Assembly (NCBI GenBank): GCA_029856435.1
Contig: JAHQXB010000163.1
Coordinates: 1 to 34,759 of the forward strand
Direction: 5' to 3'
DNA from: Candidatus Jordarchaeia archaeon
Lineage (GTDB): Archaea; Asgardarchaeota; Jordiarchaeia; Jordiarchaeales; Jordiarchaeaceae
DNA: 34,759 bases
Every line of letters begins with the position of its first letter. Position 1 is the stretch's first letter. A program made the translations under genes and the position numbers. This document shows, one piece after another, positions 2,806-20,882 of this stretch. Below the pieces are notes generated by a model. That model saw only the letters and a program-made list of their open reading frames with translations, searched no databases and was not told the origin of the DNA.

Positions 2806-3666
2806 ACTGTCCACCTTCCAATAACAGAGAAGCAGCACCAGAATTATTCAAGCACGCTACAAATTAAGCTAGAAAATCTGGAGTCCGCACCACACACATG
2901 GGGAGGCAACATTGGAAATTTTACATGTTCATTACGCCACATTCACTCTGTGTAGCTGCTCTTTAAGCATTAAAGACCCATTACCACCAATTGAGAATAG
3001 CGAAAAGTACATCAACACACACGCAATCCTTGCGCAATCACCTGCCTGAAAGCTTCATACCGTTACTTAGGTATGTCTTCAAAGAGTTGAAGCAAAACCA
3101 AAATATAAGGTTAACCCTGTTTCAGCACTGTTTCCTCCAAGCATCACCTATTTATGGGATGGTGCTGTTTCATGTCTCCCCCTGCCCTCTCCACCTTAAA
3201 TTTGTATTTCCCCTCTCATAAAATACGATTTCAAAACTTTAAATAAACGCGCACCTACCCTCAATAAGTGACACTGAATTAACAACACTACCTATTCCGG
3301 CAATGCTGTGGGCGGTATACTTCTAAACGTTTGAGGTTAATGATTTTTATTTTTAGGGTACTAGGGGGTGCCAGTTCTCAAATTAGTAATTCCATCGCTT
3401 CCTAGAAGCTTTTTGAAAAAACGCCAAACAGTAAATACCAAAATTCCTTCTGCGTTGCGTCATCATCTTTAAATTAATACAGTAGGGGGATGGCTGATTT
3501 TCTTAATCAAAATTTTTATATACAATTTTTTATTTAGTATAAGCATTGCAGTTCATTTACTTATAAATTTTTAAATAGTTCTCGCATTAATGTTTTATTT
3601 TGTGGAGGGCGTAGTTGGTGTCTTAATCTAGCTGTTTATGCTTAAGGCGTTTTTTGGGGTGATGTT
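2806..3666. other. 861-bp intergenic region, no convincing gene
   Basis: The region lies between divergent genes. The only longer open frame (2991-3221, +) has no ribosome site, no recognisable motif and a low-complexity composition, so I do not call it. Composition becomes strongly A/T-rich from about 3440 to 3600, where promoter-like elements for the next operon lie. No tRNA, repeat array or clear hairpin was seen. Confidence 0.6.
3561..3568 (+). promoter_or_regulatory. TATA-box candidate for the thiol-redox operon
   Basis: TTATAAAT at 3561-3568 matches the archaeal TATA consensus and lies in the most A/T-rich stretch before the operon. Transcription would then begin near 3590, giving a leader of about 75 nt that contains a GGAGGGCG motif at 3604-3611 and the ribosome site GGTGA at 3658-3662. 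A second TATA-like stretch lies at 3514-3523. Confidence 0.4.
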
Positions 3667-5061
3667 TTGGTTGAAGAGTTTGACGTTATAGTGGTTGGTT
3701 CTGGTTCAGGAATGATTGTGGCTTCGAATGCTGTTGAAAGCGGTTTGAAAGTGGCCTTGGTTGAGAAGGGACCCCCTCTGGGTGGAACTTGCCTCAATTG
3801 GGGTTGTATTCCTTCAAAGATGCTCATCTACCCGGCGGATGTCGTGACCATGATTAAGGAAGCGGAAAAAATTGGCATCAGGGCCAAAATAGAGAAAATC
3901 GATTTTCAAAAGATTATGCACCGAATGCGTCACCTCATCAGCGAGGAGAATCGAGGAATGGCTTTAGGGGTGGAGCGGGATCCAAATATTAAGTGGTTTA
4001 AAAACATAGGCGAATTCGTCTCCGATTACACTATGAAGGTGGGAGACCGAAAGATTAGGGGCGAAAAAATCTTCATAGTTTCTGGAGCCAGGCCTTTTAT
4101 TCCTCCAATTAAGGGTATCGATGGTGTAAACTATTTGACCAATGAGACCGTGCTGGAACTAGAGGAGCTACCTTCAAGTATTATCATCATTGGTGGGGGA
4201 TATGTGGGCTGTGAATATGGCCACTTCTTTGCGGGAATGGGTAGTGAGGTTACAATAGTGGAGTTGGGTCCCAGACTTGTGCCGGGCGAGGAGCCCGAAA
4301 TATCAGAGCTACTCAAAAAGGAGATGGGAAAAAGAATGAAGATACTCACGAATCACCAAGTAGTTGAGGTTGGGGAAAAAAATAAGGTAAAGACGGTGGT
4401 GGCCAAGGAAACTACCAGTGGGAAGGTTAAAGAGCTGTCAGCTGAGGCCTTAATGGTTGCTGTGGGCCGCAAGCCCAACTCTGACTTACTTAAGCCGGAG
4501 AAAACTGGTGTAGAGGTAGATAGTAAGGGATTCATAAAGGTGAACGATTACTTGGAAACCACCAAGAAGAACATTTGGGCTTTCGGAGATGCCATTAATA
4601 AGCAGATGTTTAGACACGCAGCCAATTACGAGGCACAGGTGGCATGGCATAATGCCTTCAGCGACCACAAGGTGCCAATAAACCTCTCTGCGACACCCCA
4701 CGCGGTTTTCACGCATCCCCAAATAGCGTCGGTTGGCTTAACCGAGGAGCAGGCGAAAAAGGAAGGACGCAAAATTTTGGTGGGTTACTACCACTTTAGA
4801 GAGACCGCCAAAGGCTCAGCGATGGGAAACCCTGAGGGATTTGTGAAGGTCATAGTGGAGCAAAGCACGGGGAAAATTCTGGGCGGACATATAATTGGCC
4901 CCTTTGCACCTGAACTCATACAGGAGATTGTAAACGCTATGGCTTATGGGAATGGTTCCTATGCCCCCATCATTAGGGCTATGCACATTCACCCCGCAGC
5001 CACAGAAACAGTTAAGTGGGCTTTTGGCAACCTGAGAACAGTGGACGATGATTCCATTTAG
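3667..5061 (+). CDS. Dihydrolipoamide-dehydrogenase-like flavoprotein disulfide reductase
   Basis: A 464-residue class I pyridine-nucleotide disulfide oxidoreductase that moves electrons between NAD(P)H, FAD and a redox-active disulfide. The N-terminal FAD loop is VVGSGSGM (9-16). The active disulfide is Cys42-Cys47 in GGTCLNWGCIPSK. The NAD(P) loop IIGGGYVGCEYG is near residue 175, the second FAD motif WAFGDA near 305, and the C-terminal catalytic pair sits in HIHPAATE. There is no N-terminal HMA domain and no C-terminal vicinal Cys pair, which argues against mercuric reductase. The start is TTG with GGTGA about 5 nt upstream. It is followed after 14 nt by a glutaredoxin-like gene and then an FTR-like gene. 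No lipoyl-protein or 2-oxoacid dehydrogenase genes lie nearby, so its true substrate may be the glutaredoxin-like partner or a low-molecular-weight disulfide rather than lipoamide. Confidence 0.85.
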   Translation: MVEEFDVIVVGSGSGMIVASNAVESGLKVALVEKGPPLGGTCLNWGCIPSKMLIYPADVVTMIKEAEKIGIRAKIEKIDFQKIMHRMRHLISEENRGMALGVERDPNIKWFKNIGEFVSDYTMKVGDRKIRGEKIFIVSGARPFIPPIKGIDGVNYLTNETVLELEELPSSIIIIGGGYVGCEYGHFFAGMGSEVTIVELGPRLVPGEEPEISELLKKEMGKRMKILTNHQVVEVGEKNKVKTVVAKETTSGKVKELSAEALMVAVGRKPNSDLLKPEKTGVEVDSKGFIKVNDYLETTKKNIWAFGDAINKQMFRHAANYEAQVAWHNAFSDHKVPINLSATPHAVFTHPQIASVGLTEEQAKKEGRKILVGYYHFRETAKGSAMGNPEGFVKVIVEQSTGKILGGHIIGPFAPELIQEIVNAMAYGNGSYAPIIRAMHIHPAATETVKWAFGNLRTVDDDSI

Positions 5062-5075
5062 GGAGTGATGTTGGA

Positions 5076-5360
5076 ATGGATGTGGTAAAAGTTCCAGGTA
5101 GCAATAGGAAGCATAAGGTTCGCATGTATGCTTTGAGCACCTGTATCTGGTGTAAGCGGACAAAACAGTTTTTGAAGGATAACAACATAGAATACGAATA
5201 CGTGGATGTGGACCTGGCGAACAGGGAGGACTACGAACAAATCAGGCAAGAGATTTTGAGTAGGGGAGGAAGCCTCTCCTTTCCAGTAATAATAATAGAT
5301 GATAACAAGTTAATTAATGGTTTTCGTGAAAACGATTTGAGGGAGGCTTTAGAGATTTGA
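5076..5360 (+). CDS. Glutaredoxin/NrdH-like redox protein
   Basis: A 94-residue thioredoxin-fold protein. The redox motif is STCIWCKRTKQFL with Cys23 and Cys26, followed by the typical glutaredoxin segment IEYEYVDVDL, the cis-Pro region SFPVIIID and a C-terminal helix. A short N-terminal extension of about 14 residues precedes the first strand. Such proteins shuttle electrons to target disulfides. The start ATG is preceded by GGAGTGAT. It sits between the flavoprotein (14 nt gap) and the FTR-like gene (4-nt overlap), so all three are almost certainly translated from one mRNA. The natural reading is that it is the electron carrier of this operon, reduced either by NAD(P)H through the flavoprotein or by ferredoxin through the FTR-like protein. 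Confidence 0.88.
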   Translation: MDVVKVPGSNRKHKVRMYALSTCIWCKRTKQFLKDNNIEYEYVDVDLANREDYEQIRQEILSRGGSLSFPVIIIDDNKLINGFRENDLREALEI

Positions 5361-5908
5361 CCACTCTGGAAGAGGTTCAAAAAAGAGCGGAAAGCGACGC
5401 AAAAACTTACGGCTACTACCTAAACCCAGACCCAGAATTTCTCAAAGGGCTCATCGAGGGACTTAAGAAAAACTGGGACCGCTATGGCTATCCCTCCTGT
5501 CCCTGCAGATTGGCCTCAGGAAACATTGAAATCGACCGCGACATAATCTGTCCCTGCGATTACCGAGACCCCGACGTGGCAGAGTACGGACAGTGTTACT
5601 GCTCCCTATACGTCAGTAAAGAGGTGTACGAAGGTAAAGCCCCCCTAAGATCAATTCCGGAACGCAGACCCAAAGAAAAACAAATCAGATCCTTCGAAGC
5701 CGCCAAGGCCCCCACCAAAAAGGAAAAAGCTGAAGGGGAGATAAAATTGGAAGCCGAGAAACCTATTACAATTGAGAAGAGGTTGTGGTACTGTAAGCAG
5801 TGTGGCTACGTGGTCTACAGGGAGGACCCCCCATACATTTGCCCCATATGCAAGGCGAAGAGGGAAATGTTTTCCGAAATAAAAATAGTCATCTCCGACA
5901 AGAGATAA
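5357..5908 (+). CDS. Ferredoxin:thioredoxin reductase-like catalytic protein fused to rubredoxin
   Basis: The N-terminal domain (1-95) is the catalytic subunit fold of ferredoxin:thioredoxin reductase. By alignment with the plant/cyanobacterial enzyme, Cys48, Cys65, Cys67 and Cys80 would bind the 4Fe-4S cluster, and Cys50 and Cys82 would form the redox disulfide, in the motifs SCPCR, CPCDY and CYCSL. A charged linker of about 45 residues follows. Residues 143-172 form a rubredoxin-type domain with Cys146/149 and Cys162/165. A rubredoxin-fused enzyme of this type, called ferredoxin:disulfide reductase, is known from Methanosarcina. No variable (alpha) FTR subunit is seen. The start is a TTG overlapping the stop of the glutaredoxin gene by 4 nt, showing translational coupling. 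The likely role is one-electron ferredoxin or rubredoxin input to a two-electron disulfide, with the adjacent glutaredoxin-like protein as target. Confidence 0.9.
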   Translation: MTTLEEVQKRAESDAKTYGYYLNPDPEFLKGLIEGLKKNWDRYGYPSCPCRLASGNIEIDRDIICPCDYRDPDVAEYGQCYCSLYVSKEVYEGKAPLRSIPERRPKEKQIRSFEAAKAPTKKEKAEGEIKLEAEKPITIEKRLWYCKQCGYVVYREDPPYICPICKAKREMFSEIKIVISDKR

Positions 5909-5984: not shown

Positions 5985-6260
5985 TTATTTTTTTGTCTTC
6001 TGTTGTTCTTCTGTGCCTCGGGTGCAAAAGTAGTCCTTGGTGAATTTCATTTCTTTCCATACTGGGCAGTCTGGACACTGACAGCCTACTTCCTCAGTTA
6101 TCTTTTTACTTTTTCCCCTTAGGGGGTGGCAGTAGACTATGTAGGTGTCAGGTTCTCCTAGGCTGGCGTAAGTTGGACAGTCCCTGCAGATACATATATT
6201 TTCAAATCGCTTCAACTTCTCCTGAGCCTTCCCAAGTTTTTCCCCGCGTGATCTAGACAT
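5985..6260 (-). CDS. Small Cys-rich protein, DUF2769-like
   Basis: A 91-residue soluble protein with eight Cys in the central part, arranged as CICRDCPTY, a lone Cys, GCQCPDCPV and a final FCTRG. This spacing, together with the GKS..I.E segment, resembles the DUF2769 family of archaea, whose function is unknown; the Cys pattern suggests a zinc or iron-sulfur site. The frame can start at a GTG at 6269, but GAGGTGA overlaps that codon and sits 5-6 nt before ATG 6260, so the ATG is the real start. It is divergent from the WrbA-like gene and shares its promoter region, which suggests a redox or stress role by association only. Confidence 0.75.
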   Translation of the reverse strand: MSRSRGEKLGKAQEKLKRFENICICRDCPTYASLGEPDTYIVYCHPLRGKSKKITEEVGCQCPDCPVWKEMKFTKDYFCTRGTEEQQKTKK

Positions 6261-6315
6261 AGATTTCACCTCATTTTAACCCTTCTAAAAATGTTAGGAT
6301 TAGAATAAATTTTAA

Positions 6316-7196: not shown

Positions 7197-9197
7197 TTAG
7201 GTAACTCGCACCAGGCTTTCCTGTAGTTTGCCGTTCGCCTGTTCCTCTTTTTTACCATTTTTTCCATTTAGGGGCTGCAGTCCCAATCTTTGTTCAGCAG
7301 CTTGTAGGATAGCACCCAACATTTCAGAGTAGGACATTCCAGCGATTTTTGCCATTTTAGCAAGGTGTCCGTCCCAACACCATCCAGGGTTGGGGTTTAC
7401 TTCGAGAAGTTTTGGGTTTCCATTAGAGTCAAGCCTCCAGTCGAAGCGGCAGTAGTCTCTGCATTCCAGCCTCTGGAACAGGGTAATGCACCACTTTATG
7501 ATTTTACTTTTTACGTCTTCTGACAGATCTGCGGGTATAGATTTTATGTTCCAGTAGGGAGAATCTGGTAGCCACTTGGCTTCATATCCACAGATTTTAG
7601 GGAGCCCCTCTGGCAGTGAAGAGTAGTCCTCCTCGGTGATGGGCAGTACTGTGTAAGACTCTGGGGGGTTACCAATTATGCCTACACTAAGATCTTTGCC
7701 GGATAGAAATTCTTCGACTAGGATGGGCCTGTTGTACCCGAATTTTTCACGTATCTCGGAAATTGCATTGATGAGTTCTTCGGGATTGTTTACCACACAT
7801 CTCTGCGTGATGCCGAAGCTTGAGTCACCAAAGTTTGGCTTTACCAGAGCTGGGAAGACGAAGGTTAAATCGTATATGGAGTCTTCAGGTTTAACGAAGA
7901 TAGCTCTGGGAACTGGGATTCCCATCTCGTTGGCTATACCTCTTACCAGAGACTTGTCATAACAATGCGCAAGACACTGGGGACCGGAGCCGGTGTAGGG
8001 TATGCCTAGCTCCTCCAGTAGAGCAGGAATGTGTAGTTCTTTTCTGGGATCGTTAAAGAAACCTTCATCGCACAGGTTGAAGACGTAGTCTATCTTGCCC
8101 CTTAATTTCATTAAGTCTTGGATGAGGGTGTCGTGGTTGTGCAGATATGTGAAGTTGTAACCTTTGAGTTCTCTGAGAGCGTCCTTCATTTGGTCGATCG
8201 TGTAGATGTCGTCGTCGTCAAATCTTGCTCCCGGTTTGAGGCGGTCTGGCTTTGAAGGGTCACCGGTTATCACTACTACTTCTCTCAGCTCCTCTTTGGG
8301 TCTTTTCTTGATGGGTGTCCACTCTTTTCTGACAACACCTGTGATTATGATCCGTCTCTCCATCATACCTAGGTCTTGGTTACGCTGGGAAGAGGAGGCA
8401 ATTTCGGTGTGTATTGTTACATCGCTTAATCCCGCCTGTTGTAGAATATGGGTTATGCTATCTCTAGTGTAAAGTCTTTCGGCGTAGAATTGGTCGGCTA
8501 TTGTACCTTTTTCTACGTTGTTAATTATTTCACGGGTTATGAGACGTTGGCCATCGGCAGAAATGGAGCGTTCCCTGCACACGAAATGCTTTTTGTCTAT
8601 CCACTCCCATGAGCGTGGCTGATAGTGTTTCTTCAAGTATTCGCCATCAGCAACATCTATGAGTAGTTTGCCCCAGGGTTTGAGCACCCTGAAAGCCTCT
8701 TTAAGAACTCTAACGTCGTCCTGAACTGTTTCAAAGTAGCCAAAACTGTTCCCTAGAATCATAACCACATCGAAGGTATCTGGCGCATATGGAAGTTTTC
8801 TTGCATCGCCTTCCCTGAATCGAACATTTAAGCCTTCCTTTTTAGCTTGCGTCTTCGCCTTTTGAATTAGGTAGTGGGAGCGGTCCAATCCTTCAACATT
8901 CTTGAACCCTCTTCTTGCCAGTTCTAGAGAGTGACGCCCTTGTCCACAGCAACAATCCAGAATTCTATCGTCTGGTTGAAGATTCAGAATCGAAGAGAAG
9001 AGATCCACCTCTTCTCGGGTGATTTTCTGGTCGTCTACTACATCCCCATCAGTTTTTAGATAAAGGGAGTTAAAAATACGCCGCCACCAATCAGGAGGAA
9101 CATACTGCTCGAGATCATCGATAGGCCCTAGAACTTTTAATTGAGACTTACCATTTTTCCCCCGCGAGGGGGGTTTATCCCCTGCCTTTTCAGTCAT
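7197..9197 (-). CDS. Fusion protein: SAM methyltransferase + D-Ala-D-Ala-ligase-like ATP-grasp
   Basis: A 666-residue two-enzyme protein. Residues 60-295 are a class I SAM-dependent methyltransferase with motif I LDCCCGQGRHSLELA (80-94), an acidic GLDRS after strand 2, GDARKLPY and FDVVMILGNSFGY. Residues about 305-640 are an ATP-grasp ligase closest to D-alanine-D-alanine ligase: LGIPYTGSGP (397-406), LVKPNFGDSSFG (451-462), EEFLSGKDLSVG (495-506), and the Mg/ATP-binding FDWRLDSNGNPKLLEVNPNPG region (585-605). No stop or frame change lies between them. Both termini carry Asn/Gly/Lys-rich tails with GKNGK. Archaea lack murein, so the ligase half probably joins another amino acid or carboxylate, and the methyltransferase half may act on the same product. 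The ATG start follows GAGGCGC. No partner genes lie next to it. Domain identity is firm; the pathway is unknown. Confidence 0.85.
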   Translation of the reverse strand: MTEKAGDKPPSRGKNGKSQLKVLGPIDDLEQYVPPDWWRRIFNSLYLKTDGDVVDDQKITREEVDLFSSILNLQPDDRILDCCCGQGRHSLELARRGFKNVEGLDRSHYLIQKAKTQAKKEGLNVRFREGDARKLPYAPDTFDVVMILGNSFGYFETVQDDVRVLKEAFRVLKPWGKLLIDVADGEYLKKHYQPRSWEWIDKKHFVCRERSISADGQRLITREIINNVEKGTIADQFYAERLYTRDSITHILQQAGLSDVTIHTEIASSSQRNQDLGMMERRIIITGVVRKEWTPIKKRPKEELREVVVITGDPSKPDRLKPGARFDDDDIYTIDQMKDALRELKGYNFTYLHNHDTLIQDLMKLRGKIDYVFNLCDEGFFNDPRKELHIPALLEELGIPYTGSGPQCLAHCYDKSLVRGIANEMGIPVPRAIFVKPEDSIYDLTFVFPALVKPNFGDSSFGITQRCVVNNPEELINAISEIREKFGYNRPILVEEFLSGKDLSVGIIGNPPESYTVLPITEEDYSSLPEGLPKICGYEAKWLPDSPYWNIKSIPADLSEDVKSKIIKWCITLFQRLECRDYCRFDWRLDSNGNPKLLEVNPNPGWCWDGHLAKMAKIAGMSYSEMLGAILQAAEQRLGLQPLNGKNGKKEEQANGKLQESLVRVT

Positions 9198-13505: not shown

Positions 13506-13820
13506 TTAGCTGGTTTTTATTTTTATTGCATTAACTGGGCATTGTTCTTCACAAGCCATACATTGGATGCAGTCCTCTTCTCTAGCGGGGTCAGATTTCT
13601 TTTCGGAAACTGGATGATTGGGTGCGTCTGCCCATTCAAAAACTGACACGGGGCATACGTCGATACAAACTCCGTCCCCTTCACAAATGTCCCAATCAAC
13701 TGCCACATTGGTTCCATGAATACCCAGTTTTTCTGGTGGCTCAACAGGTCCCCATACATTGTGATTTTGGTGTCTACCCACTATTCTGCGACTCTTTTCA
13801 AAATTAGTATCTATAGGCAA
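13506..13820 (-). CDS. Zinc-containing dicluster ferredoxin
   Basis: A 104-residue ferredoxin of the type described from Sulfolobus and Thermoplasma. The N-terminal extension contains the zinc ligands His17, His20 and His35, with Asp77 from the core as fourth ligand, all in the expected places (VGRHQNH, LGIHGT, KKSDP). The first cluster motif is C46-x2-D49-x2-C52-x3-C56-P, where Asp replaces the second Cys, which predicts a 3Fe-4S cluster. The second motif is C84-x2-C87-x2-C90-x3-C94-P for a 4Fe-4S cluster. In Sulfolobus this ferredoxin is the electron acceptor of the 2-oxoacid oxidoreductase whose homologue lies next door, convergent. The start is TTG with GGAGGGAT 7 nt upstream. Identification is very secure. 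Confidence 0.95.
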
Positions 13821-13968: not shown

Positions 13969-15348
13969 CTATTGCTTTGTTTTCTCTATGGGATAGCCGG
14001 CCTCCTTCCAGGCCATTATTCCGCCTAGTACGCTTGTTACTTTTTCGTAACCATTCATTTTTAGTATGCTGGCTGCGATGCTGGTTTTATATCCCGAGTC
14101 GCAGTACACCACTACGTGTTTTTCTTTGGGCACTTCCCTTAATCGGTTTTTTAGGTCTCCTACCCAGATGTGGTGGGCGTTCTTCACGTGGCCTTCCTGC
14201 TCCCACTTGTTTTCGTCTCTTACATCGAGGATAAAAAGGGACTTGTCTTCAAGGTTCTTTTCAAATTCGTGAACAGACCAAGTATTTACCTTTTCGACTT
14301 GTTCGGCTTCCCTGTACCAAGCAGGAAATCCTCCGGCTAGGTAGCCTTGGAGGTTGTCGTAACCTAGGCGAATAAAGTATCTCACGGTTTGGTCAAGGGC
14401 AGCATTGCCATCAGTGATGATAATAATTGGGTCTTCATAGTTTAGCATCCAGCCTATGAAGAGTGGCAGGCCGCTTCGCCATATATTTATGCTTTTGGGC
14501 ACATGTCCCCCCGAGAAACCTGTGGGCATCCTCGTATCCACGATTTGGGCACCGTTTTCGCGGTGCTTTTTTAGTTCTGCTACATTTACTGCTTTAAGAG
14601 GGGGTAAGCGTTGTAGGAGGGGAGGACCCTCTTTGTTGTACTCTTCCATTTTTCTAAAGTATGGGGGTCTATCAAGCTTCTCCCTCATTTTGCGGGCAAC
14701 AAATGCCGCTTTATCTTTTAGTTGTAATGCCTTATTAGTTTTCTTTTCAAACCCTATTGTGGTGTATTCAAGGTCTCCAATCGCCCCTCCACAAACGGAG
14801 CCCTTTCCATGAGCTGAGCAAACAATGACTCCCTCACCCAATTTTAATAGTTTGCCAAAAAGGCTATCATATAAATTGCTTGCTAACCTTTCCTTTTCTT
14901 TTTCTCCATAGAGGTCTGTTCTTCCAACATCTCCCGCAAACAGGGTGTCACCAGTAAACACCATGTACACTTCGTTGGAGGATTCTCTATCCTTTAAGGT
15001 AATTGAGATGCTTTCATCAGTGTGCCCCGGTGTTTCAAGTACTTCCAATTCCAGCATACCTACCTCAAATTTGTCTCCTTCCTTTACTCCCCGCCCATAG
15101 GAGAAATCTAGTCTTGAGCCATGATGAATTTCTGCACCAGTCACGTTTGCCAGTTCCAATGAACCGACAACGTAGTCCTCGTTCCTGTGGGTTTCAAAAA
15201 TGTGAGTAATTCTTACTTCATACCTGTTTGAGAGATCAAGATAAACGTCTATGTCTCTTCTCGGATCAATGACTGCAGCCCGATTTCCAGAACCCACAAA
15301 ATAGGAGTTATGCGCTATTATTTCAGACTTCACCTTCTCAAATATCAA
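13969..15348 (-). CDS. Persulfide-dioxygenase-like MBL hydrolase with two rhodanese domains
   Basis: A metallo-beta-lactamase domain (residues 1-240) followed by two rhodanese domains (about 258-360 and 370-460), the same order as bacterial CstB. Numbered from the GTG at 15363, the mononuclear-iron ligands of ETHE1-type persulfide dioxygenases are conserved: His59, His114 (TPGHTDES) and Asp139 (FTGDTLF). The rest of the HxHxDH motif reads HRNEDY, so a two-metal hydrolase is unlikely. The first rhodanese lacks the catalytic Cys (ITDGNA at the loop); the second has it, Cys421 in YCDSGYKTS. Expected chemistry is oxidation of glutathione- or CoA-persulfide sulfur to sulfite, with sulfane-sulfur transfer by rhodanese. 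GGAGG lies 7-8 nt before the in-frame TTG at 15348, so I start there, not at the upstream GTG. The tandem rhodanese gene lies upstream on the same strand, 130 nt away. Confidence 0.88.
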   Translation of the reverse strand: MIFEKVKSEIIAHNSYFVGSGNRAAVIDPRRDIDVYLDLSNRYEVRITHIFETHRNEDYVVGSLELANVTGAEIHHGSRLDFSYGRGVKEGDKFEVGMLELEVLETPGHTDESISITLKDRESSNEVYMVFTGDTLFAGDVGRTDLYGEKEKERLASNLYDSLFGKLLKLGEGVIVCSAHGKGSVCGGAIGDLEYTTIGFEKKTNKALQLKDKAAFVARKMREKLDRPPYFRKMEEYNKEGPPLLQRLPPLKAVNVAELKKHRENGAQIVDTRMPTGFSGGHVPKSINIWRSGLPLFIGWMLNYEDPIIIITDGNAALDQTVRYFIRLGYDNLQGYLAGGFPAWYREAEQVEKVNTWSVHEFEKNLEDKSLFILDVRDENKWEQEGHVKNAHHIWVGDLKNRLREVPKEKHVVVYCDSGYKTSIAASILKMNGYEKVTSVLGGIMAWKEAGYPIEKTKQ

Positions 15349-15478
15349 TCCAAAAACCTCCACAAAAAATTATTCAAAACTTTTAACAAAACCACACACT
15401 ACACATTTCAAACCAATTTGAAATAAGAAAAAAATGGTTGAGTCCCACTCAAACATGGTAGAAATAGGGGTCTGAGAT

Positions 15479-16348
15479 TTAGCGTGGGTTTTTTCCCACC
15501 ACTGTTGGATTTTCGGGGTAGGCTGTCCACTCTGTGAATGAGCCTTCGTATATTTTTACTTTGGGGAATTCCAGGTAATATTTGAACAGGAGGAACTCAT
15601 TTGTTGCTTCTCTCCCTGTTCCGCAGGAACAGATTATGGTTTTGTCGGGCGTAACTTTGCTGGCGTCAAGTATGGCCTGAATCTCTTTATCGGGTTTAAG
15701 CAGTCTTTTGTTTTTGGCGTCCATAAAGTTTGCCCAAGGTAGGTTTATTGCCCCCGGTATGTGGCCAGGCTTAATCCAGGGTCCTTGGCCCTCGTAAACG
15801 GGTGCGGGGCGGGCGTCCAAAAGAATCACATCTTCCCGATCCTTTATTTTCTTGAATTCCTCATATTCGACGTAGAATTCTTTGCGGACTTGGACCTTGA
15901 AGTTGGATTCTTCTATTTTGGGAAATTCTTTGGTGAGTTTTTTGCCCTCCTCCTTCCACTTGTCAATGCCTCCGTCAAGAATGTAAACATTATTGTGTCC
16001 GAAGCGAATCAGGGTGTAGGCTACCATGGTCTGCTCTAAACCATCACCCCAACCCTTAACGGGCCCTACACCAGTATAAACGACCACTGGTACATCTGGC
16101 TTGAGGCCGTTTCTGCGGAAAAGTGCTTGGGCAACCTCTTTGGGAACGTATTTTCCAGGGATTCCCTTATAAGGGACGCGGAACAGTTTCTCGCTTATAT
16201 AAACTGCTCCGGGTATATGCTCCTGAATATAGTCGTGGATGTCGGGCTGAGTATCCAGTATCATCAAATTTTCCTCTAGGTGCTCCTCCAACCAGTCGGT
16301 TGAAACCCATTTCACTATACCCCTTCCATAAGGATATTTCTTAGCCAT
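15479..16348 (-). CDS. Thiosulfate/3-mercaptopyruvate sulfurtransferase (tandem rhodanese)
   Basis: A 289-residue protein of two rhodanese domains. The N-terminal one (to about 140) lacks a Cys in its active loop ([11 protein letters not shown]) and is structural. The C-terminal one has the catalytic loop CGTGREA with Cys242, preceded by Cys240. [11 protein letters not shown] and [11 protein letters not shown] are the conserved CH2 motifs. It transfers sulfane sulfur from thiosulfate or mercaptopyruvate to cyanide or thiol acceptors. The ATG start is preceded by GAGGAGGCG. It lies on the same strand as the MBL-rhodanese gene downstream and the rubrerythrin pseudogene upstream, a sulfur/oxidant-stress neighbourhood. 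A TATA-like AATTTAAAT lies near 16403-16412, so it probably has its own promoter. Confidence 0.92.
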
Positions 16349-16558: not shown

Positions 16559-17107
16559 CTAGAAGGATTTGAATTTTCCTTTGGGGGAGTTGTATATGGA
16601 GCACTTGTTTGGAGTTTCACCTTTGGGGGTGTAGCCACACACGGAGCACATGTTTATTGGTCCAAAACTGGCGTCTTTGCCCTAGTCTACAGATTTTTTG
16701 CCTTTTCATATAAATCAAGATGGGTGGGTCTTCTCAGCTACAAGAGCCTACTCAAAACTATTCGCTGCAGCCTTTTCGTCTTGAAGATTAGCTACAGCAA
16801 TGTAGGTGGGGTACATCTCGTTGACTTCGAAGGTTTCCCCATCAATTCCCGCTTGAAGATCCTCATAAGTGTTTGTGGTTCCAAAGATGGCTCCAGAAAT
16901 GGTAACGGCTTCCCCCCTGCTTTTTATAATGCGGTAGTGGTTGCCTGCATGAAACTTCTCGGCAAAAGATGTTGCCTGAAACAATCGGACAACGTTGGGA
17001 AACTTGTTCTTCTCTGCTCTCTCTGAATAAATTAAATATCTCATGTGAGCCTGGCCCTCTTCAGCATAAACACTTCTAAGATTAGTTTCAGTCATTTCCT
17101 TAGCCAT
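16559..17107 (-). pseudogene. rbr: Rubrerythrin, inactivated by nonsense and frameshift changes
   Basis: The intact first part starts at ATG 17107 (GGAGGG upstream) and reads as a rubrerythrin diiron domain: AKEMTETNL, GQAHMRYLIYSERAEK, SFAEKFHAGNH, GETFEVNEMYP. After ANSFE comes TAG, where the family usually has Trp. The sequence then continues as ALVAEKTHPS. A +1 shift gives DLYEKAK, a compensating shift in an A-run gives KSVD, then another TAG, GKD, and finally the C-terminal rubredoxin domain MCSVCGYTPKGETPNKCSI ending at the stop 16559-16561. In that domain the last Cys has become Tyr. The second ExxH iron-ligand helix (EKTHP) lies beyond the first stop, so the 119-residue product from ATG 17107 could not form the diiron site. 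Normal function would be peroxide reduction. Confidence 0.9.
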
Positions 17108-17493
17108 AAAATACGCCCTCCAATATTTTAAAAATTGATAGTATATCATATAGGGGAAGAAGTATATTCATTTCCTAATCATTTGTGGAAAATAAATCCC
17201 CACGGATTTAGGAAAACACTCTTTAAATCTTCTTCCCAGAATTAGTTTGGTTCGTGCATTTGAGGACCAAGGGGCCTTCAACGTCAAAAAAGCTGAATTT
17301 AAGTTTAACGCGTTGATAAAAAACTTGAAACAGCCCCCTTTTTCAGAAAAGGAGTCTTATAAAACCAGATCTATTCTCACTGGTCAAACGTGGGCAAGTT
17401 AGATTTTGGTTTCCAAGAGATTAAAAAAGTTTAAGAAGCAAGTTTTACAATGGTTTTCAAACAAGCTATTATAACGGGAAAATATTTTGTTGC
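17108..17493. other. 386-bp divergent intergenic region
   Basis: It separates the rubrerythrin pseudogene from the glycyl-radical enzyme gene. It contains the overlapping inverted repeats listed separately at 17171-17215 and A/T-rich stretches that may hold both promoters. No short gene with a ribosome site or RNA gene was recognised. Confidence 0.5.
17171..17215. promoter_or_regulatory. Overlapping inverted repeats, operator candidate
   Basis: TTTCCTAA (17171-17178) is the exact reverse complement of TTAGGAAA (17208-17215). Nested inside, TAAATCC (17193-17199) pairs with GGATTTA (17204-17210) around a 4-nt spacer. The two pairs share three bases, so they are alternatives if formed as RNA, but both could be protein-binding dyads on DNA. 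It lies about 65 nt upstream of the rubrerythrin start and about 280 nt upstream of the glycyl-radical enzyme start. Confidence 0.4.
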
Positions 17494-19896
17494 GTGGTAG
17501 GTTTTATGAAAGCCTCCCAGGATGTTAAGGGTAAGCTTATTGTTAAGGCGGTTAGAAATGTTAGAAGAGGCTATACGAAGGATGAAGCCACAAGGGGCAT
17601 GTTTCGTCCAGGAATCAAGTTGGATTTACAGAGGTCACGCCTAATAACTGAATCGTACAAGATGACTGAAGGCGAGCCCATGCCCATAAGGAGGGCTAAG
17701 GCTCTAGACCATATCCTCAGCAATTTAAAGATTTATATTCAGCCCTGGGAACGCATAGTGGGTAACCACACTGAGGAGCCCAGCGGTCTCTTTTTCCCCA
17801 TAGATATGAATTGGAGAAGCGTTTGGAGGGCTGTCAATTCTGTGGAGGGAAAAGGCCTCCTTGACGATGATGGGCGAAAAGAGTTGGAGGAACTCTGCAA
17901 ATACTGGGATGGTAAATGCATGAGTGATAGGCACAAAAACTTTTTTGGCGGAGAATTAGCCAAATACTGGAGGTATGATGGAACCTTCCTGTGGACCCAC
18001 TGGTCAGAGTTAGGAGTGCCTGATTACGAGAAACTGTTCCGTGTCGGGCTCAAGGGCCTAATTAAAGAAGCAGAGAATAAGCTGGAAGAAATAGAGAGGG
18101 AAGTTCCCCGCAGCTACGTGGAAAAGAAGGAATTCCTACTAGGAGTTATAATCGCACTCAAAGCAGTCATAAAATATGCCCACAGATACGCTAAACTCGC
18201 CAGAGAAATGGCTGAAAGGGAAACCAGAGATAAAGAGTTGAAGCAGAGGCTTCTGGAGATTGCTGAGAACTGCGAATGGGTTCCAGAAAACCCGCCTCGC
18301 ACATTTCTGGAAGCCCTACAGTTCTTCTTCATCATCCACCTGGTACGCTACGTGGAATATTCCACGTTGGGAATTGGAGTGAGGTTCGACAAGGTTTTTG
18401 GGCCCTACTACGAAAAGGATATCGCTGAGGGACGCCTCACAAGAGAGGAAGCCTTAGAACTGTTACAGTTGCTCTGGGTTAAACTGCACGAATTGGGGCT
18501 AATTTATTCCCCCCTACTTACAGCTATTTATGGGGGCGTAGCCTCCCTCCAAGCCATCACAATAGGTGGAACAGACTCAGAAGGCAGGGATGTTACAAAC
18601 GAAGTTAGCTACCTTGTTCTAGACACCGCCCTATCTATGCGCACCCTTGAGCCGAGCATCGCCCTGCGGGTTCACGATGGCACTCCAGACGAACTCTTGG
18701 AGAAGGCTGTCGATGTAATACGTACGGGCATAGGGTACCCTTCACTATTCAATGATCGAGCCATTATTCCCCTACTTCAGAGGTGGAATGTGCCCCTAAA
18801 GGATGCCCGTGACTACTCTGTAAGTGGCTGTGTCTACATAGAGATTCCCGGAAAGTGTATGGCCCGCCGCGCCCCGGGGGGCATCGTCCTACCTAAATGT
18901 TTGTGGTGGGCTCTTCACCAAGGCAAAGACCCAAAGACTGGGGAGCAGAGGGGTGCGCCCACGCCGGATCCCCGAACTTTTAAATCTGTGGAGGACGTGA
19001 TGAACGCTTATCTGGAGCAAGTGCGGTTTTTCTTTGATAAACAGTTGAAGTTGGAAGATACTTGCCGTGAACTCTACGAGAAGTATCTTCCAAGGCCCTA
19101 TTACTCGGCAATTCTGGACGGCTGTATAGAGAAGGCGATGGATTGCAGAAAGTGGGCCTATCCCACTAACTCATTCTGCGTAATTATTGGTCCCACAAAT
19201 GTTGCGGACTCCATAGCGGCTATTAAAAAGGTGGTTTTTGAGGATAAAAAGGTCACCATGGAGGAACTCATAGAGGCCATGGATAATAACTGGAAAGGAT
19301 ATGAGCACATTAGGCAGTTAATGCTCCAGGCGCCCAAGTATGGAAACGATGACGACTATGTGGATGAAATAATGAATGAGGTGCAAGTAAAAACAGAAGC
19401 AGTGATAGAATCATTCAGGGATCGCTTTGGACATCCCTGCCGTGGTGATGGGAGCGGTGTTTCTGCCACCTATGGTGTTGCTTTTGACACCCCTGCAACT
19501 CCTGATGGGCGCTTCGACGGGGAACCATTCGCAGATGCCACTCTCTCCCCCATGATGGGCAGAGATCAGAAAGGGCCCACTGCTGTTCTCAGCTCTGCTG
19601 CCAAAGTCGATGCAGTTAAAACTTACAATCATCTGCTTAATCAGAAGTTTTTGCCAAGTTATCTTGAGGGCGATTACAAACCCGTTTTTATACAGTATCT
19701 CAAAACTTGGAGAGAAATGGGAATACCCCACATACAATTCAACATTGTGGACAAGAAAACCCTAATCGAAGCCCAGATGAAGCCTCAGGAGCACCAGGAC
19801 CTTATTGTACGTGTTGCGGGTTATAGTGCCTACTTTGTGGATCTCAGTAAGGGATTGCAGGACGCAATAATAGCAAGAACCGAACAAAAGTTTTAA
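17494..19896 (+). CDS. Glycyl-radical enzyme, pyruvate-formate-lyase family, atypical active site
   Basis: An 800-residue glycyl-radical enzyme. The C-terminal radical loop is IVRVAGYSAYFVDL with Gly776 as the radical site. The thiyl residue is Cys446 in YSVSGCVYIEIPGK. In most eliminase, dehydratase and decarboxylase members the motif is GCVE, where Glu two residues after Cys is the general acid/base. Here that position is Tyr448. It is not true PFL, which has a Cys-Cys pair. Length and the rest of the fold, for example GGVASLQAITIGGTD and the DATLSPMMGRDQKGPTA C-terminal segment, are normal for the family. The start is GTG 17494 or the in-frame ATG 17506. The activase follows 56 nt downstream. 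The substrate cannot be assigned; loss of the acid/base Glu argues against diol dehydratase, choline lyase and 4-hydroxyphenylacetate decarboxylase chemistry. Confidence 0.9.
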   Translation: MVGFMKASQDVKGKLIVKAVRNVRRGYTKDEATRGMFRPGIKLDLQRSRLITESYKMTEGEPMPIRRAKALDHILSNLKIYIQPWERIVGNHTEEPSGLFFPIDMNWRSVWRAVNSVEGKGLLDDDGRKELEELCKYWDGKCMSDRHKNFFGGELAKYWRYDGTFLWTHWSELGVPDYEKLFRVGLKGLIKEAENKLEEIEREVPRSYVEKKEFLLGVIIALKAVIKYAHRYAKLAREMAERETRDKELKQRLLEIAENCEWVPENPPRTFLEALQFFFIIHLVRYVEYSTLGIGVRFDKVFGPYYEKDIAEGRLTREEALELLQLLWVKLHELGLIYSPLLTAIYGGVASLQAITIGGTDSEGRDVTNEVSYLVLDTALSMRTLEPSIALRVHDGTPDELLEKAVDVIRTGIGYPSLFNDRAIIPLLQRWNVPLKDARDYSVSGCVYIEIPGKCMARRAPGGIVLPKCLWWALHQGKDPKTGEQRGAPTPDPRTFKSVEDVMNAYLEQVRFFFDKQLKLEDTCRELYEKYLPRPYYSAILDGCIEKAMDCRKWAYPTNSFCVIIGPTNVADSIAAIKKVVFEDKKVTMEELIEAMDNNWKGYEHIRQLMLQAPKYGNDDDYVDEIMNEVQVKTEAVIESFRDRFGHPCRGDGSGVSATYGVAFDTPATPDGRFDGEPFADATLSPMMGRDQKGPTAVLSSAAKVDAVKTYNHLLNQKFLPSYLEGDYKPVFIQYLKTWREMGIPHIQFNIVDKKTLIEAQMKPQEHQDLIVRVAGYSAYFVDLSKGLQDAIIARTEQKF

Positions 19897-19904
19897 ACTA
19901 AAAA

Positions 19905-19922
19905 GGCGGTGGGATTTCCGCC
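19905..19922 (+). other. Small hairpin between enzyme and activase genes
   Basis: GGCGG (19905-19909) pairs with CCGCC (19918-19922) around an 8-nt loop, just after the glycyl-radical enzyme stop. No T-run follows, so it is more likely an mRNA processing or 3'-end stabilising structure, giving more enzyme than activase, than a terminator. Confidence 0.35.
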
Positions 19923-19952
19923 ACTGTTATTGGAGATGTTGCTTGAAATGGA

Positions 19953-20882
19953 TTGTTAAGGGTGGGTGTAAAAAATCTGAAGTTAAAGGGACTTATTTTT
20001 AATATTCAGAGGTTCAGCATTCATGATGGGCCTGGAATAAGAACCACGGTTTTCTTGAAGGGGTGCCCTCTGAGATGCCTTTGGTGTTCCAATCCTGAAT
20101 CTCACGAGCCCTTTCCTACTATTATTGTTCGAGACATTAAGTGTGCTAAGTGTGGAAGCTGCGCTTTGGTGTGTCCTGTGGGTGCCATAAGCTTTGACAG
20201 GGAGAGGGGAAGAGTGATTAACTGGTCGGCTTGTAATCAGTGCTTGGTTTGTGTGGATGCTTGCAAATACCGGTCGCTTAGCATTTGTGGAAGACATATG
20301 GATGTTGATGAGGTTCTTGGGGAGGTGTTGAGAGATGTGCCCTTCTACAAAAATTCTGGTGGTGGGGTGACTGTTTCGGGGGGTGAGCCTCTATTACAAT
20401 GGGAGTTTGCTTCTGAGCTTTGTAAAACCTTTAGGGAAAACAAGCTCCATACTGCTCTCGAGACGTGTGGCTTTGCTCCCTGGAAAATTTTTGAGAGGGT
20501 TTTGGAACATGTGGATTTGGTTCTTTATGATGTTAAGCACCTTGACCCCGTGAAACACAGGGAGGGTACTGGTGTGGATAATGAAGTGATTTTGGATAAC
20601 CTTCATAAAGCAGCAAAAAGGAGACCGGTCTGGATTAGGGTACCCTTAATTGCGGGTTATAATGATTCAAAAGAGCACATTAAAAGCGTGGTGAATTTAG
20701 CCAGAGAGGTGGACGCCAAAAAGATTTCATTGCTGCCCTACCATGAGGGTGGGAAGTCTAAGTGTGAACAAATTGGAAAAACTTATCCCATTCCAGACGC
20801 TAAAGCCCCCCCAGAAGAGTATGTCAAAGAACTAAAAAAGTATATTACAGAGTTAGGAGTGGAAGCAACCATAGGTCACTAG
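19953..20882 (+). CDS. Glycyl-radical enzyme activating protein (radical SAM)
   Basis: A 309-residue radical-SAM protein that makes the glycyl radical on its partner. The N-terminal FSIHDGPGIRTTVFLKGCP leads into the cluster motif Cys38-x3-Cys42-x2-Cys45 (GCPLRCLWC). An inserted dicluster ferredoxin domain follows (Cys64, 67, 70, 74 and Cys94, 97, 100, 104), as in activases of glycerol dehydratase- and decarboxylase-type enzymes and unlike PFL activase. The SAM-binding GGGVTVSGGEPLLQ is near residue 131. The start is uncertain: TTG 19953, or GTG 19962 in the same frame; no clean ribosome site decides. It lies 56 nt after the enzyme gene, same strand, so pairing is clear. Electrons probably come from reduced ferredoxin. 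Confidence 0.92.
   Translation: MLRVGVKNLKLKGLIFNIQRFSIHDGPGIRTTVFLKGCPLRCLWCSNPESHEPFPTIIVRDIKCAKCGSCALVCPVGAISFDRERGRVINWSACNQCLVCVDACKYRSLSICGRHMDVDEVLGEVLRDVPFYKNSGGGVTVSGGEPLLQWEFASELCKTFRENKLHTALETCGFAPWKIFERVLEHVDLVLYDVKHLDPVKHREGTGVDNEVILDNLHKAAKRRPVWIRVPLIAGYNDSKEHIKSVVNLAREVDAKKISLLPYHEGGKSKCEQIGKTYPIPDAKAPPEEYVKELKKYITELGVEATIGH

Follow-up and report, generated by a model that had tools for sequence, protein, structure and literature searches.

A conserved operon in Jordarchaeia and Bathyarchaeia encoding an Lpd-like flavoprotein, a glutaredoxin-like redoxin and a ferredoxin:disulfide reductase, a candidate two-input thiol-reducing module

The 34,759-nt stretch of DNA analysed here (hereafter the window; contig JAHQXB010000163.1 of assembly GCA_029856435.1, from an Asgard archaeon of the Jordarchaeia) carries an operon encoding a dihydrolipoamide dehydrogenase (Lpd)-like flavoprotein, a glutaredoxin-like redoxin and a ferredoxin:disulfide reductase (FDR), a gene set that is also found in Bathyarchaeia. 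Based on the sequences and their gene neighbourhoods, we propose that this operon may serve anaerobic archaea under peroxide and disulfide stress, as a thiol-reducing module with two electron inputs, a reading to which we assign a probability of about one half. The biochemistry of the redoxin-FDR half is already known in Methanosarcina, so the novelty is confined to the addition of the Lpd-like flavoprotein and to the gene context. No earlier account of the three-gene operon was found in the open literature, a coverage that excludes most subscription journals. Both Bathyarchaeia and Asgard archaea are anaerobes of high abundance, their redox defence has scarcely been studied, and the conserved set constitutes a direct, testable candidate for oxygen and disulfide handling in both.

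All three genes lie on the forward strand, downstream of an A+T-rich, TATA-box-like stretch recognised by eye at 3560..3578 (+). The first (3667..5061) encodes a class I flavoprotein disulfide oxidoreductase of 464 aa with the Pfam domains Pyr_redox_2 and Pyr_redox_dim, the second (5076..5360) a Glutaredoxin-family redoxin of 94 aa with a CIWC motif, of the NrdH/YruB/methanoredoxin type, and the third (5357..5908) a protein of 183 aa in which an FTR-beta domain (FeThRed_B) is fused to a rubredoxin-type domain (RUBY_RBDX); all of these assignments scored above the Pfam cut-offs. The layout given by the initial annotation, a gap of 14 nt between the flavoprotein and redoxin genes and an overlap of 4 nt (TTGA) between those of the redoxin and FDR, is exact to the base. 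Comparison with other Jordarchaeia gave dN/dS values of 0.05-0.15 for the three genes in the seven comparisons with estimable dS, two more being saturated, and an excess of third-position changes in each comparison. All three genes are under purifying selection among Jordarchaeia, and the low dN/dS together with the third-position excess identifies the ORFs as real genes.

The redoxin-FDR pair closely resembles its Methanosarcina counterparts. FDR scored 83.6 bits against PF02943 and 42.8 bits against PF21349, and its top PDB match is the Methanosarcina structure 4tpu (1.8e-46, residues 4-173), aligned over both domains, which agrees with the earlier statement that rubredoxin-fused FTR is known from this genus. 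It contains the motifs CPC-CPC-CYC and, in the rubredoxin-type domain, CKQC-CPIC, with all catalytic cysteines kept; CPC-CPC-CYC is found in 71 of 81 relatives and both rubredoxin CxxC pairs in 78 of the 81. Tyr occupies the middle of the CYC motif, the CHC position, a replacement of His in FDR that Prakash reportedly described in 2018. The protein thus has the architecture and the CxC motifs of an FDR, from which ferredoxin-dependent activity is predicted. The redoxin (54.1 bits against PF00462) has as its closest PDB structures the glutaredoxins 5cax (3.9e-20), which is methanoredoxin-like, and 3nzn; the CxWC pattern is shared by 73 of 79 redoxin relatives, and GFREN replaces the glutathione-binding GG motif, an ending that we take to be an NrdH-type feature. 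Membership of the Glutaredoxin family, a CxxC motif and no glutathione motif are the sequence features expected of a methanoredoxin/NrdH-type redoxin, while the score against the YruB-family glutaredoxin model TIGR02196 (61.8 bits) fell below its cut-off of 88.55.

In Methanosarcina, the substrates of FDR include Trx5 and methanoredoxin, and with NrdH the enzyme feeds class III ribonucleotide reductase. The pair from the window shares with it the FTR-beta and rubredoxin domains, the CPC-CPC-CYC motifs and a CxWC glutaredoxin-like partner; in the window the two genes have 4 nt in common and the flavoprotein gene is added to them. The pair is kept widely in archaea, and at 57 of 64 loci with calls for both ORFs the overlap is exactly 4 nt. 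FDR also aligns with the FTR part of 7pwe, which carries a glutaredoxin-like domain too; here, as in a protein of the Asgard genome G051, redoxin and FTR are coupled in one chain, although in these fusions neither a rubredoxin domain nor an Lpd partner was seen. Given the homology to the Methanosarcina proteins, transfer from ferredoxin through FDR to the redoxin is the well-supported half of the mechanism, and it is very likely that FDR would reduce the redoxin. In another Asgard family, an FTR-like gene with CPC-CPC-CYC kept follows a gene for a Ras-family small GTPase fused through a long proline-rich linker to a glutaredoxin-like domain lacking CxxC (LSRGGFGRR). Such loci include L044:5750-7045 (G041), L019:3-1415 (G028), L043 and L022, with only the linker-glutaredoxin end visible in two genomes with short contigs, and further Ras-like GTPases and thioredoxin-like ORFs are found beside the fusion.

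In a survey of 59 Asgard relatives, the flavoprotein gene adjoined the redoxin-FDR pair only within the genus of the window. The view that adjacency is limited to this genus was overturned by a scan of named genomes, which gave 30 loci with operon-type Lpd, 26 of them belonging to Bathyarchaeia or close to them. The flavoprotein gene lies upstream on the same strand in 27 of the 30 and on the opposite strand in three, and is situated no more than 300 nt upstream of the redoxin gene in 22, comprising all four Jordarchaeia and 18 Bathyarchaeia loci. As the same order recurs in three other Jordarchaeia and these 18 loci, the three-gene set is not due to chance; the initial annotation had treated adjacency in relatives as decisive, and the set proved to be adjacent in two archaeal groups. 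In several Bathyarchaeia the flavoprotein gene is found at a distance of 0.6-1.6 kb or on the opposite strand, and in most non-Bathyarchaeia the redoxin-FDR pair comes without operon-type Lpd, so the flavoprotein is not an obligatory partner.

The Bathyarchaeia loci place the operon in a context of oxygen defence, which the interpretation in the initial annotation had omitted. Their typical order is rubrerythrin (optional), superoxide dismutase (SOD), ferredoxin (optional), a primase-like protein, Lpd, redoxin, FDR, endonuclease III (Nth) and peroxiredoxin. Among the 26 Bathyarchaeia-type loci with operon Lpd, endonuclease III was present in 23, a PrxQ-type peroxiredoxin in 17 (always on the same strand), the primase-like protein in 17, Fe/Mn SOD in 15, ferredoxin in 10 and rubrerythrin in 9. 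Loci with and without operon Lpd differ strongly in these genes, with PrxQ, for instance, in 17/26 against 5/48 and SOD in 15/26 against 2/48, although the p-values are inflated by common descent, the Bathyarchaeia not being independent of one another. Representatives were identified with Pfam and NCBIfam as HhH-GPD proteins with the EndIII cluster, Fe/Mn SOD, rubrerythrin, 2[4Fe-4S] ferredoxin and a flavodiiron protein; the peroxiredoxin belongs to AhpC-TSA, its best NCBIfam models being of the BCP/PrxQ type, below cut-off. The enrichment of SOD, PrxQ and endonuclease III argues for a role in defence against oxygen and peroxide, and the unit probably serves this function in Bathyarchaeia. The defence context comes from Bathyarchaeia alone, the Jordarchaeia operon not adjoining SOD, Nth or Prx.

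Alternatively, the module could mainly serve class III ribonucleotide reductase, like the NrdH and FDR of M. barkeri, with the oxygen-defence neighbours being incidental. Wei et al. are said to have found in 2015 that an FDR delivers electrons to the M. barkeri enzyme, and NrdD was present in every one of the 25 operon genomes searched for it; NrdD is, however, common in anaerobes, which makes its co-occurrence weak evidence, and the neighbour clusters examined contained no NrdD, with Nth, PrxQ and SOD there instead. We regard this alternative as rather unlikely, and prefer a module directed at peroxide and disulfide stress.

How the flavoprotein would contribute to such a module is less clear-cut. 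It has the redox disulfide GGTCLNWGC (CxxxxC) and the His-Glu dyad HIHPAATE, and the Glu that follows its second Rossmann strand (VTIVELG) suggests use of NADH; several Bathyarchaeia homologues carry QR after this strand and may use NADPH. No C-terminal Cys extension was found in the protein from the window, the C-terminus of which has no Cys. The usual substrates of classical CxxxxC/His-Glu enzymes without a C-terminal extension are lipoyl groups or small disulfides, and direct reduction of the redoxin by a site of this kind therefore appears unlikely. Of the thiol-redox hub suggested by the initial annotation, what stands is a conserved unit in which a ferredoxin-type and a pyridine-nucleotide-type reductase surround one redoxin, while the notion that the flavoprotein feeds the redoxin directly finds no support in its active site.

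Domain order, CxxxxC and the His-Glu dyad are those of dihydrolipoamide dehydrogenase (E3/L-protein), an activity predicted by NCBIfam model NF004947, which the protein passed (643 vs 592 bits), failing the general model TIGR01350 (389.5 vs 408.8 bits). In a 68-row tree, where the operon label was assigned by score and locus and the reference rows are long-branched, the operon-type proteins formed one clade (support 98/97) within an archaeal family, across a 100/98 branch from E. coli Lpd, E2-linked Asgard Lpd and GCS-linked Brockarchaeal Lpd; the Lpd reference set comprised four sequences, one of them labelled Lpd in this analysis without linkage evidence. Clustering with the Lpds of lipoate-using systems, which the initial annotation regarded as contrary to its reading, was thus not observed, the flavoprotein being separate from the E2- and GCS-linked enzymes. 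Automatic models call the clade dihydrolipoyl dehydrogenase, and metabolic reconstructions may be misled. Membership of MerA was rejected (357.6 vs 454.45 bits, no C-terminal Cys pair, a separate clade in the tree). In one genome (G081), a non-operon Lpd-like gene is preceded, at 0.5 kb and in the same orientation, by the gene for a second redoxin (138 bits; L277:5503-6936, 7425-7730), apparently a separate Lpd-redoxin pairing.

One possibility is that the flavoprotein reduces a low-molecular-weight thiol, comparable to the glutathione, mycothiol and CoA reductases, and that this thiol then reduces the redoxin. Among PDB structures, mycothione reductases match it best and Lpds less well, and in the tree the operon-type family is placed together with mycothione reductase and haloarchaeal Lpd, at a fork of modest support (95/77) with a long mycothione reductase branch. 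Membership of the mycothione reductases was rejected by both cut-offs (406.3 vs 501 bits for NF005884, 373 vs 636 bits for TIGR03452), the redoxin has no glutathione-type GG motif and no thiol biosynthesis genes were identified, and we consider a dedicated small-thiol reductase of this kind improbable.

The other possibility, which we judge equally improbable, is that the flavoprotein is an ordinary glycine-cleavage L-protein whose place beside redoxin and FDR is convenient rather than functional. Consistent with the initial annotation, no lipoyl enzyme is encoded near the operon within the window; the genome as a whole, contrary to what this might imply, has three GcvH genes, GcvP and lipoate-ligase genes, and the three GcvH-type proteins keep the lipoyl Lys region. 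It contains two Pyr_redox_dim proteins, the one besides the flavoprotein being CoA-disulfide-reductase-like, and no 2-oxoacid dehydrogenase E2 was found in the four Jordarchaeia genomes, in a search that covered Asgard relatives. The flavoprotein may thus also be the L-protein of this cell, and possibly its sole Lpd; in Wukongarchaeum a related Lpd gene is divergent from a GcvT-like gene (by eye). L-protein is nevertheless not the general role of the clade, as GcvP is missing from 19 of the 24 Bathyarchaeia with operon-type Lpd, where one or two GcvH are kept. The position in the tree outside the E2-/GCS-linked cluster, the linkage to redoxin and FDR repeated across two phyla, and the missing E2 in Jordarchaeia likewise count against an ordinary L-protein.

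GcvH was present in 28 of 28 genomes with the operon-type clade, with the lipoyl Lys in every sequence read, and a lipoate-ligase homologue in 26 of the 28 (22 of 24 Bathyarchaeia); the lipoyl-lysine motif ESVKAVS is kept in GcvH in the 19 neighbourhoods of GcvP-less Bathyarchaeia and in one GcvP-bearing genome. Co-occurrence was rejected as proof of a link, being too weak given that 45 of 48 genomes have GcvH anyway. What function lipoyl-GcvH might serve where GcvP is missing is a question raised by these counts. A CoA-disulfide-reductase-like flavoprotein gene follows the lone GcvH gene in 20 of 20 Bathyarchaeia loci read (L248-L267), with a myo-inositol-1-phosphate synthase-like gene usually on the other side. 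This neighbour could be the true partner of the lone GcvH, which would count against a link to the operon Lpd. The operon was also considered as a replacement for thioredoxin reductase, an idea rejected because NTR is present in nearly all operon genomes; the presence of thioredoxin reductases also counts against the module proposed here.

In the two-input module that we favour, the first input, a strong inference, would start at reduced ferredoxin, enter FDR by its rubredoxin domain, reach the [4Fe-4S]/CPC-CYC site and end at the CxWC redoxin. For the second, a weak inference, electrons from NADH, or in some Bathyarchaeia probably from NADPH, would pass by way of the Lpd-like enzyme to a small dithiol partner and from there to the redoxin; the likeliest partners are the lipoyl arm of a GcvH-type protein and a low-molecular-weight disulfide. 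On the output side, gene context suggests a PrxQ-type peroxiredoxin as the target of the redoxin, with class III ribonucleotide reductase as a possible further one. That the redoxin served by FDR is also fed by the flavoprotein, with a lipoyl group or a small thiol in between, is tentative, and somewhat less likely than not.

The redoxin of M. thermoautotrophicum is reduced by dihydrolipoate and not by GSH, Trx or CoM (PMC7278568), and M. tuberculosis has a chain of NADH, Lpd, DlaT, AhpD and AhpC (PMC12028322); these precedents make a lipoyl protein a natural go-between of Lpd and redoxin. The chain that may exist here would by analogy share with that of M. tuberculosis an Lpd-type flavoprotein, a lipoyl protein, a small thioredoxin-like adaptor and a peroxiredoxin, but the adaptor is a glutaredoxin-fold redoxin instead of AhpD, the putative lipoyl carrier GcvH instead of E2, and the operon has a second, ferredoxin input. 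Genes for the parts of such a chain are present in the genome, Prx being near the operon in the Bathyarchaeia loci described above and GcvH elsewhere. The full relay, from NAD(P)H through the Lpd-like enzyme, a free-standing lipoyl-GcvH with no need of GcvP and the CxWC redoxin to PrxQ, parallel to that from ferredoxin through FDR to the same redoxin, is a speculative proposal that we consider improbable. If true, one small protein would join the ferredoxin and pyridine-nucleotide pools, in an archaeal NADH peroxidase/thiol relay previously undescribed.

In the window itself, the genes next to the operon encode WrbA and a Cys-rich DUF2769 protein (5985-6269, -), the latter just downstream and convergent; each of the four Jordarchaeia keeps the DUF2769 gene near the operon. 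Two genes lie 8-11 kb away: a 2[4Fe-4S] ferredoxin gene (13506..13820, -), of the same family as one near the Bathyarchaeia operon and a possible candidate for the electron donor to FDR, and a rubrerythrin-family gene (16748..17149, -; 11 kb off), of the same cluster as the member of the Bathyarchaeia oxygen-defence island, whose link to the operon is uncertain. AhpC-TSA proteins are encoded elsewhere in the genome, and an AhpC-TSA peroxiredoxin gene with an in-frame TGA is found in all four Jordarchaeia (L296, at G000:C157:753-1130 in the genome of the window, L297 and L298); a selenocysteine peroxiredoxin of Jordarchaeia has already been reported (PMC9723677).

Several other genes of the window were recorded. 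A fusion of a methyltransferase with a D-Ala-D-Ala-ligase-like ATP-grasp domain is encoded near the operon (7197-9197, -), and a homologue (L047:10079-11998) lies 7 kb from a glutaredoxin-FTR pair in a distant Asgard genome (G010). The region 13969-16348 (-) encodes a metallo-beta-lactamase/double-rhodanese protein with persulfide-dioxygenase-like architecture and a second double-rhodanese protein, which suggests sulfur handling near the operon. Finally, a pyruvate-formate-lyase-like glycyl radical enzyme and its radical SAM activase are encoded at 17494-20882 (+).
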